In this document: positions 19,223 to 22,127 of the stretch, piece after piece
Layout of the letters: each line of letters starts with the position of its first letter
Numbering within the stretch: the stretch's first letter is position 1
Assembly (NCBI GenBank): GCA_022614695.1
Contig: JAKEIC010000361.1
Location: 1-41,860, forward strand
From: Planctomycetales bacterium
Lineage (GTDB): Bacteria; Planctomycetota; JAKEIC01
Length of the DNA stretch: 41,860 nt
Direction of reading: 5' to 3'
Position numbers and translations under genes: made by a program
Notes under the pieces: generated by a model
The model's database searches: none
The model's input: the letters and a program-made list of their open reading frames with translations, nothing else
What the model was told of the DNA's origin: nothing

Positions 19223-19786
19223 ATGCCCGGCTTCCTCCTCGTCCTCTCGGGCCCGAGCGGGGTGGGGAAGTCCTCGATCGGGGACCTGCTCCTGAAGGAC
19301 CCCGCGATCGTCCGGTCGGTCTCGGCGACGACGCGGCCGCCGCGCGGGGGGGAGCGGGGCGGCGTGGACTACTTCTTCCTCGACCCGCCCGACTTCGAGA
19401 GGAAGGCGAAGGCGGGCGAGTTCCTCGAGCACGCGACGTTCGGGAAGAACCGCTACGGGACCCCGCGGCCGTTCGTCGAGGGAAAAGTCCGCGAGGGGAA
19501 TGTGGTCCTCCTCGTGATCGAGGTCCAGGGGGCCCGGCAGGTCCGCGACGCGGGGCTCTCCTGTCACTCGGTCTTCGTGAGGCCACCGTCCTGGCAGGCG
19601 CTCGAGGAGAGGCTCCGCAGCCGCGGGACGGACTCGCCCGACGACATCGCGCGCCGCCTCGACATCGCGCGGGGGGAGCTGGCCGCGGCGGCGGAGTTCG
19701 AGGCGGTCGTGATCAACCGGGACCTGAAGCAGGCCGCCCGCGAGGTGAAGGCCCTCGTGGACGGTTGGCGAGGGGGCGGCGCGTAG
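19223..19786 (+). CDS. gmk: Guanylate kinase
   Basis: LVLSGPSGVGKSSIGDLL...VSATTRPPRGGERGGVDYFFL...FLEHATFGKNRYGTP...VVLLVIEVQGARQVRDAG. Confidence 0.95.
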   Translation: MPGFLLVLSGPSGVGKSSIGDLLLKDPAIVRSVSATTRPPRGGERGGVDYFFLDPPDFERKAKAGEFLEHATFGKNRYGTPRPFVEGKVREGNVVLLVIEVQGARQVRDAGLSCHSVFVRPPSWQALEERLRSRGTDSPDDIARRLDIARGELAAAAEFEAVVINRDLKQAAREVKALVDGWRGGGA

Positions 19787-19799
19787 AATGGCGGTCTGA

Positions 19800-20342
19800 G
19801 TGGCCCGCATCCTCCTCGGCGTCACCGGCAGCATCGCCGCCTACAAGGCGTGCGAGCTGGTGCGCCGCCTCCGCGAGCAGGGCCACGAGGTCCAGGTCGT
19901 GATGACTCGGGCCGCCTGCGAGTTCGTCTCGCCGCTCACGTTCGCCTCGCTCTCGGGGAAGCCCGTCCTCCGCGACCTCTGGGACCCAGTGGAGGGCGTC
20001 CGCCACGTCGCGGCGGCCGACGAGGCGGAGCTGCTCCTCGTCGCCCCCGCCACCGCCGACGTGATCGGAAAGATGGCCCTCGGGCTCGCCGACGACTTCC
20101 TCACGACGGCCGCGCTCGCCTTCGCGGGGCCGATCGTGGTGGCCCCGGCGATGGACGACAACATGTGGAAGCACCCGGCGGTGGCGGCGAACGTCCACAC
20201 CCTAGAGAAGCGCGGCGTGACCGTCGTCCCGCCCGCGAAGGGCCCTCTCGCCTCGGGCCACGTGGGAGAGGGGAGGCTCGCGGAGGTTCCGGACGTCCTC
20301 GCGGCGGTGGCGCGCGCCCTCCCGCAGCAACGGAAGAAGTAG
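19800..20342 (+). CDS. coaC: Phosphopantothenoylcysteine decarboxylase domain only (CoaC/flavoprotein)
   Basis: RILLGVTGSIAAYKACELVRRLREQGHEVQVVMTRAACEFVSPLTFASLSG...LLLVAPATADVIGKMALGLADDFLTT...VVAPAMDDNMWKHPAV; no synthetase domain fused. Confidence 0.92.
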   Translation: MARILLGVTGSIAAYKACELVRRLREQGHEVQVVMTRAACEFVSPLTFASLSGKPVLRDLWDPVEGVRHVAAADEAELLLVAPATADVIGKMALGLADDFLTTAALAFAGPIVVAPAMDDNMWKHPAVAANVHTLEKRGVTVVPPAKGPLASGHVGEGRLAEVPDVLAAVARALPQQRKK

Positions 20343-20352
20343 GAGGTAACCC

Positions 20353-21399
20353 ATGTCCGGCCGGTCCACTGTCGCCCTCGTCGTCTCGGCGGGCCTCGTC
20401 CTCAGCCTCGTTCTCGGCGCCCGCGCGCAGTCTCGTGAGGCCAAGGCCGAGCTCCAGGAGCTGGAGAAGCGCTACGAGCGCAGCAACAAGTCCTATCCCG
20501 ACCGCGCGAAGGAGCTGCAGCCCGGGTACGAGGCGATCGCCAGGAAGTGGCCGGGGACCGAGGAGGCTCTCACCGCGAAGCTCTGGCTCCTCTCGAACCT
20601 CTGGTGGGCGCGGGACGACCCGAAGACCCCCGAGCGGGCGCGGCAGATGGCCGAGCAGATCCTCGCCGAGCACCCGAAGTCCCGGCAGCTCGCGAAGATC
20701 GCCGTGGACGGATACCTGCTCGCCGAGAAGTACCGGCGGCCGTTCTACGAGAAGCTCCTCTCGGTCTCGCCCGTGGACGAGGTCAAGGCCGCGGCCCTGA
20801 TCGGGCTCGGCCGGGACGGGCTCCGGGATGCCTCGGCGGAGAAGGAGGAGGCCCGCGGACGCCTCCGCGAGGTGATCGAGAAGTACAAGGACGTCCCTTA
20901 CCGGCTCGGGACGGCCGGCGACATGGCGGACGCGCTCCTGAACCCTCATCCCGCCGCCGCGCTCGAGATCGGGCAGCCGGCGCCCGAGATCGTGGGCAAG
21001 ACCGCGGACGGGAAGCCCCTCAAGCTCTCGGACTTCCGCGGGAAGGTCGTCGTCCTCGACTTCTTCGGCGACTGGTGAGGCCCGTGCCGGGCGATGTACC
21101 CGCACGAGCGGTCGCTCGTGAAGAAGCTCGCGGGCCAGCCCTTCGTCCTCCTCGGCATGAACAGCGACGCGAGCCCCGAGAAGCTCGCGAAGGTGGTCGA
21201 GCGCGAGAATCTCACGTGGCCCATGTTCTTCGACGGCGGCGGCACCGGGGGCCCCATCGCGACGAAGTGGGGCGTCCGCGGCTGGCCGAGCATATTCGTG
21301 ATGGACGCCGAAGGCATCATCCGGGAGCGCGACTGCCGCGACGAGGAGATGGAGAGGGTCGTGATGAAGCTCCTCGCGGAGTTGCGGCGGGGGAGGTAG
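20353..21399 (+). CDS. Candidate selenoprotein: exported redoxin/thioredoxin-fold protein with in-frame TGA (21076-21078) giving DFFGDW-U-GPCRAMYPHE
   Basis: ORFs 20353-21078 and 21094-21399 are in the same frame; codons 21079-21093 read GPCRA; the C-terminal half is a complete thioredoxin fold; SD aggaggtaaccc; SECIS-like hairpin downstream of TGA. Confidence 0.75.
21103..21120 (+). promoter_or_regulatory. Candidate bacterial SECIS element
   Basis: Perfect 7-bp stem CACGAGC / GCTCGTG with apical loop GGUC (21110-21113); 31 nt separate the TGA from the loop. Confidence 0.6.
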
Positions 21400-21483: not shown

Positions 21484-21786
21484 ATGGGACAGACGACCGT
21501 CCGCATCGCAGAACGGACGAGGGCGTCGCTGCGAGCGCTGGCCCGGCGCGCGGGGACCACCATGCAGGCCGTCCTCGAGCGGGCGGTCGAGGAGGCCCGA
21601 CGGCGCGCCTTCATTGACGCCTTGAACGCCGACTACGCCGCGGCCCGGCGGGACCGGGAGACCTGGGCGATGGTGCGCGAGGAACGGGCGGTGTGGGACG
21701 CGACCGTCGGGGACGGCCTGGCCGACGAGCCGCCTTGGCCGGCGGAGGACGCGAAGCCCGTCCCGAGGCGCCGCCGGCGGCGGTGA
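21484..21786 (+). CDS. MazE/RHH-type antitoxin
   Basis: MGQTTVRIAERTRASLRALARRAGTTMQAVLERAVEEARRRAFIDALNADYAAAR; directly upstream of and overlapping a MazF-like toxin. Confidence 0.8.
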   Translation: MGQTTVRIAERTRASLRALARRAGTTMQAVLERAVEEARRRAFIDALNADYAAARRDRETWAMVREERAVWDATVGDGLADEPPWPAEDAKPVPRRRRRR

Positions 21787-22127
21787 TGAGGGCCCCGGTC
21801 CGCGGGGAGGTCTGGCTCGCGGACCTCGACCCCACGCGAGGACGCGAACAGGCGGGGCGTCGCCCGGTCCTGGTGCTCTCCGTGGATCGGTTCAATGCGG
21901 GGCCCGCCGGGCTGATCATCGCGATCCCGCTCACGTCCCGTCTGCGCGGGTGGACGGGGCACGTGCCGATCGTCCCGCCCGAGGGCGGCTTGCGCGTGCC
22001 GAGCGCGGCGATGTGCGAGGCCCTCCGCTCCCTCGACCGATCGCGGCTCGGGGTGGCGTGGGGTACGGTCACGCCGCGCACCTTGGCACGGGTCGAGGAC
22101 GCTGTGCGGATCATCTTGGGGCTGTGA
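21786..22127 (+). CDS. MazF/PemK-family toxin (endoribonuclease)
   Basis: RGEVWLADLDPTRGREQAGRRPVLVLSVDRFNAGPAGLIIAIPLTSRLRG...VPSAAMCEALRSLDRSRLG; TGATG overlap. Confidence 0.92.
   Translation: MRAPVRGEVWLADLDPTRGREQAGRRPVLVLSVDRFNAGPAGLIIAIPLTSRLRGWTGHVPIVPPEGGLRVPSAAMCEALRSLDRSRLGVAWGTVTPRTLARVEDAVRIILGL

Follow-up and report, generated by a model that had tools for sequence, protein, structure and literature searches.

Known UxxC selenoproteins and the locus under study

The SECIS element of Escherichia coli fdhF lies inside the coding region and consists of a short stem with a GGUC apical loop. Selenoproteins in which selenocysteine (Sec) occupies a redox motif of the thioredoxin fold are also known. 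Prx-like thiol:disulfide oxidoreductases and thiol-disulfide isomerase-like proteins with a UxxC motif (PF00578/cd02966) were found in the Sargasso Sea survey (PMC1088965) and are listed in Table 1 of a review (PMC13188914). The NCBIfam models NF041054 (ResA-like, WAxxUGC motif) and NF053656 (TUGYCR motif) likewise describe thioredoxin-fold selenoproteins with a TlpA-like domain, and, for planctomycete genomes, one study has reported other selenoproteins (PMC4807772). Prediction methods that require Cys homologs, such as deep-Sep (PMC12013277), state that families lacking them may be missed.

The gene described here lies on the forward strand (20353-21399) of a 41,860-nucleotide stretch of DNA, referred to as the window, from a Planctomycetota metagenome-assembled genome (MAG) of 4.99 Mb with 369 contigs and 88% completeness. 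It very likely encodes a probably exported selenoprotein, a TlpA/ResA-like redox protein with SelB-directed insertion of Sec at the UGA codon 21076-21078; we assign this reading a probability of about 0.96. With the UxxC Prx/TlpA-like selenoproteins, the product shares an AhpC-TSA/TlpA-type domain, UxxC in place of CxxC and a bacterial SECIS right after the UGA. Whereas those entries are defined by domain and motif only, members of the clade to which the gene belongs (GGUC clade) also have an alpha-solenoid at the N-terminus, share the motif DFWG[DFNHY]WU[GP]PC..M.PHERSLV and carry a GGUC SECIS that is fixed; the Sec motif of the clade also differs from those of NF041054 and NF053656. The original prediction had announced a candidate new selenoprotein. 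The assignment as a selenoprotein is supported, but the protein represents a new subfamily rather than a new kind, as the UxxC TlpA/Prx-like kind has had its place in selenoprotein lists from the Sargasso Sea survey onwards (PMC1088965; PMC13188914). Members of the GGUC clade may in part be counted already among the published UxxC representatives; in the literature, no paper was found that describes the GGUC TlpA-like subfamily or its SECIS. The novel features are a SECIS that is fixed throughout the clade, the scarcity of Cys versions, which are nearly absent, and a tentative small stem that covaries on the 5' side of the hairpin.

A single in-frame UGA at the redox-active position

The gene starts with ATG at 20353, just downstream of the ribosome-binding site AGGAGG (approximately 20341-20346, + strand), and ends with TAG at 21397-21399. 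Its sole in-frame TGA (21076-21078) divides it into the ORFs 20353-21078 and 21094-21399, which lie in the same frame, and standard annotation splits such a selenoprotein gene in two. Translation through the TGA yields 348 residues (...FFGDW-U-GPCRAMYPHERSLVKKL...) with no further stop and no frameshift, in agreement with the earlier proposal that one TGA interrupts one frame. The codon corresponds to Sec242, the first residue of a U-G-P-C redox motif, and its partner in the U-x-x-C pair is Cys245 (21085-21087, + strand). As had been recognised from the translation, the TGA thus aligns with the first Cys of WCGPC, the catalytic Cys of homologs, and the coding sequence is intact on both sides.

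A genome-wide reassignment of TGA to Trp, Gly or Cys, as in codes 4 or 25, would likewise allow one internal TGA to be read through cleanly. However, TGA serves as the stop codon of neighbouring genes in the window and is absent from their interior, genes of the relatives also end in TGA, and the Trp residues of the family on either side of the TGA are encoded by TGG. The TGA stops within the window refute reassignment, which is the least probable of all explanations considered.

Protein architecture

The N-terminus contains a hydrophobic signal or anchor sequence, MSGRSTVALVVSAGLVLSLVLGARAQ (20353-20430, + strand), which was recognised by sequence inspection and corresponds to a helix of residues 4-43 in the AlphaFold2 model; on this basis, the protein is probably exported from the cytoplasm. 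The model has a mean pLDDT of 94.8; in it, this helix is followed by a solenoid made up entirely of helices and by a domain with the thioredoxin fold. The solenoid spans about residues 27-201 (20431-20955, + strand), with helices at residues 48-65, 70-86, 92-106, 111-118, 125-138, 142-158, 163-178 and 188-196; its match to TPR_6 is weak and below the cut-off of that model. The TlpA/ResA-like domain (about residues 203-348; 20959-21396, + strand) was identified by Pfam, PDB profiles and Foldseek. Residues 206-325 match PF00578 (AhpC-TSA) with E=1.2e-21 and 77.4 bits (cut-off 26), with UGPC as the UxxC motif; PDB profiles match ResA/TlpA, and Foldseek matches the ResA structure 4nmu (E=1.1e-10, TMt 0.86). 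Sec242, modelled as Cys, is located just before the helix 243-246.

The protein resembles the Cys-containing ResA, TlpA and DsbE in fold and active-site position, and its best solved relatives are ResA-like. It differs from them in having Sec for Cys and an extra N-terminal solenoid, and its NCBIfam scores lie far below the cut-offs: 60.4 of 170 bits for ResA (NF002854), 46 of 230 for TlpA and 46 of 123 for DsbE. The scores for the selenoprotein models are also too low (30.4 of 300 bits for WAxxUGC_long, NF041054; 14.6 of 100 bits for the TUGYCR (seleno)protein, NF053656), so that none of the NCBIfam models reaches its curated cut-off; the family members match the same distant models.

Distribution of the TGA-containing family

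Among 59 relatives, the read-through protein matches many homologs with one internal TGA. In the strong homologs inspected, the TGA is found at the identical codon, and more distant paralogs have Cys there, which is the pattern that the original prediction had named as a check. A scan of 84,980 species genomes was performed with a pattern that fixes the residues W-TGA-x-x-C and E-R-S-L-V but accepts, for the latter five, any codon of the types GAR, CGN, TCN, CTN and GTN. It returned at least 121 matches, 120 of those listed being genuine; one locus (L175) was a chance match with a 7-codon tail and was left out of the count. Among the 120 genuine matches listed, 119 contain exactly GAGCGGTCGCTC and one contains GAGCGGTCGCTT, in which the pair is kept as G-U. 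The GGUC loop is present in all 120, and neighbouring codons vary freely. Of the 80 titles listed, nearly all belong to Planctomycetota or Verrucomicrobiota; a few are MAGs labelled Bacillota, Proteobacteria or Deltaproteobacteria. When R, S and L were each allowed any of their six codons in a scan of 392 genomes of the phylum, 65 genomes matched at more than 100 places, with GGTC in every match listed. Four of these sites carry GAACGGTCGTTC, in which A-U compensates for G-C (GAA...TTC), other sites contain G-U intermediates, and one (G334:C90) has a weakened stem, GAAAGGTCGCTC. The reversed pattern, used as a control in the phylum scan, gave no match.

The fragmentation of the assembly could raise the suspicion of a sequencing error in a true TGC codon or of a pseudogene that decays by nonsense mutation. 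However, the identical TGA occurs in the 120 listed matches from many genera and in the 65 genomes of the phylum, no second stop or frameshift is present, and strong protein conservation continues 3' of the TGA. Both possibilities are refuted by these independent copies, and the chance that either applies is negligible. Since relatives in two phyla keep the TGA and the hairpin described below nearly letter for letter, the stop codon is almost certainly read as Sec.

A version of the motif in which Cys takes the place of the TGA was found in 0 of the 392 phylum genomes, using a pattern that demands ERSLV and Met and is therefore blind to Cys homologs lacking them. In the phylogenetic tree, two possible Cys homologs (L028 and L030) are both on long branches. 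The GGUC members cluster, except for one long-branch Cys row, and are nested in a broader Sec clade. Elsewhere in the tree there are further Sec-containing TlpA-like genes, and Sec has thus been gained or lost more than once. The family represents a large subfamily of probably exported selenoproteins in phyla whose selenoproteomes have hardly been described, and with its very few Cys versions the GGUC clade is a case that concerns Cys-dependent prediction.

The SECIS element

The bacterial SECIS (bSECIS) downstream of the UGA is an apical hairpin at 21103-21120 (+ strand) with the perfect 7-bp stem CACGAGC/GCTCGTG, whose position and pairing are exactly as originally described, and a GGUC tetraloop at 21110-21113 (+ strand), which is invariant in relatives (130 of 130). 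The distance of 31 nt from the UGA that had been given for the hairpin applies to the start of the loop; the stem begins at 24 nt. Folded alone, CACGAGC-GGTC-GCTCGTG has a free energy of -10.5 kcal/mol. The predicted agreement with bSECIS elements was borne out, as stem length, loop sequence, spacing and energy all correspond to the published bSECIS model (PMC13188914). By the criteria of that model, all 13 GGUC-type members inspected pass, compared with 0 of 19 Cys homologs.

The conservation of the hairpin was analysed in 130 copies. The codons +10 to +13, which form the loop and upper stem, are fixed in 130, 130, 130 and 129 of the 130 distinct copies, with z-scores of 10-20 when measured against the codon usage of the respective gene. 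A bias is also seen at codons +2 and +4 (z of 10 and 14), and z-scores at most other codons are close to zero or modest. This result is not built in, because the copies were retrieved by a pattern that fixes amino acids and leaves codons free. Furthermore, the hairpin pairs in 95% of cases versus 68% expected from synonymous shuffling, and the maximum of 300 shuffles was 72%. Judged from codon choice and pairing, the apical hairpin is under selection at the nucleotide level.

A second small hairpin, GCCCG-TGC-CGGGC (21080-21092), had been proposed immediately after the UGA. It is present in the sequence, but it is not conserved: across the 130 relatives it pairs in 64.5% of cells versus 57% expected (shuffle maximum 61.8%), two of the five pairs are absent from most copies, and it was rejected as a conserved element. 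Its bases overlap an alternative pairing, CGGG/CCCG (21088-21091 with 21099-21102, + strand), directly 5' of the apical hairpin, in which one inner pair covaries. The top covarying pair of columns is 14-24, counted from the UGA (association p of about 1e-13, with relatedness ignored), and as this pair fits the CGGG/CCCG stem, a small lower stem was proposed. The RNAalifold consensus of 116 aligned copies contains the apical hairpin and omits the lower stem, and this stem, which has its support from covariation, is therefore regarded as tentative.

Like the SECIS of E. coli fdhF, the element has a GGUC loop on a short stem within the coding region; it differs in having an uninterrupted stem, a loop that begins 31 nt from the UGA and the tentative small stem on the 5' side. 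It may be speculated, at slightly less than even odds, that the residues HERSLV are kept for recognition by SelB and not for protein function, so that CACGAG-CGGUCG-CUCGUG is locked across Planctomycetota and Verrucomicrobiota as part of a two-part SECIS with a covarying lower stem, in an almost Sec-only branch of TlpA proteins where reversion to Cys is rare. Among the bacterial SECIS elements that sequence comparison by itself is sufficient to reveal, the hairpin is one of the clearest, and both its recognition by SelB and the constraint that a SECIS imposes on a protein are therefore directly testable.

Selenocysteine machinery and proposed mechanism

All four genes that the original prediction had suggested searching for are present in the genome. 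The tRNA-Sec (selC) scores 75 bits, above the Rfam cut-off, and ARAGORN concurs with SeC(tca); SelB (366 bits), SelA (541 bits) and SelD (351 bits) each exceed their curated cut-offs. Missing sel genes, scattered stops and a lone TGA, which would all speak against Sec, were looked for and none of them was seen. Of the genomes that carry the TGA motif, 61 of 65 have sel genes scoring above cut-off, compared with 49 of 74 genomes that lack the motif (Fisher p = 5e-5, uncorrected for relatedness, with SelB scored in the first genome set and SelA in the second). Among the four TGA-carrying genomes in which they were not found, three are MAGs that are 77-84% complete, and the remaining one, G263, reaches 91% completeness in about 480 contigs.

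In this genome, selD (L048, G000:C237:11766-12689) also carries an interrupting TGA, at the Sec site U-A-G-K. Downstream of this TGA is a stem with a GGU triloop, which resembles the GGUC loop of the TlpA-like gene.

It could be argued that translation mostly stops at the UGA, which would leave a 241-residue product consisting of the solenoid only, and that the hairpin serves regulated read-through by a near-cognate tRNA, thereby inserting no Sec. One study reports that recoding of UGA in bacteria is partial, reaching 30-40% in vivo (PMC4513850), and some truncated product is therefore expected even if Sec is inserted. However, the UGA is located exactly on the redox Cys, the bulk of the conserved sequence lies around or downstream of it, sel genes co-occur with the TGA motif, and the GGUC/GGU loop is common to this gene and selD. 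This alternative is very improbable, although it retains somewhat more weight than an error or a reassigned code. Conservation and machinery together make insertion of Sec by SelB very likely, and no explanation other than Sec insertion fits; the proposal that UGA is read as Sec is thus favoured by the TGA of the relatives, the conserved hairpin and the sel genes alike.

By analogy to the known bacterial system, SelB-GTP carrying Sec-tRNA-Sec would bind the GGUC hairpin of the mRNA, whose loop lies 31 nt downstream of the UGA. With the UGA (21076-21078) in the ribosomal A site, Sec would be inserted at the position that the nucleophilic Cys of WCGPC occupies in other TlpA-like proteins. Attack by one residue of the redox pair and resolution by the other are established chemistry for the TlpA/thioredoxin fold. 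By the same logic, the selenolate of Sec242 would attack a partner at a disulfide, or alternatively at an oxidised thiol or a peroxide, the resulting selenenylsulfide would be resolved by Cys245, and an upstream thiol reductant would regenerate the protein.

Gene neighbourhood and further TGA-containing genes

Upstream of the selenoprotein gene, on the same strand, are gmk and a gene for a 180-residue CoaC-like flavoprotein (19223-20342 of the window), on which no CoaB part was found; the ATG of the selenoprotein gene lies 10 nt after the stop of the flavoprotein gene. Downstream (21484-22127), a 100-residue ORF starting with MGQTTVRIAERTRASLRALARRAG overlaps a MazF/PemK-like gene (PF02452, E=9e-27), and the two likely form a toxin-antitoxin pair. 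A scan for promoters and terminators found nothing, and no recurring partner gene that would support a specific pathway was present in the 8-kb flanks of the family genes.

The same genome contains at least five further TlpA-like ORFs in which a TGA occupies the redox Cys position, located on contigs C58, C211 (two in tandem), C204 and C359 of G000. These loci (L052, L063, L064 and L065) have the motifs UPPC, UGPC (twice), UVNC and URPC. The tandem pair on C211 and the gene on C359 pass the bSECIS criteria, with the loop 17-18 nt after the UGA, and those on C58 and C204 fail. A second type of SECIS was observed in related TlpA-like genes (L057-L060, L063 and L065), which consists of a 7-bp stem, e.g., GTGCGGA/TCCGCAC, with, for instance, a GUU, GUC, GUUC or GGC loop, 17-18 nt after the UGA. 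In another genome, three consecutive TGA-bearing TlpA-like genes are located on one contig (L067, G037:C206).
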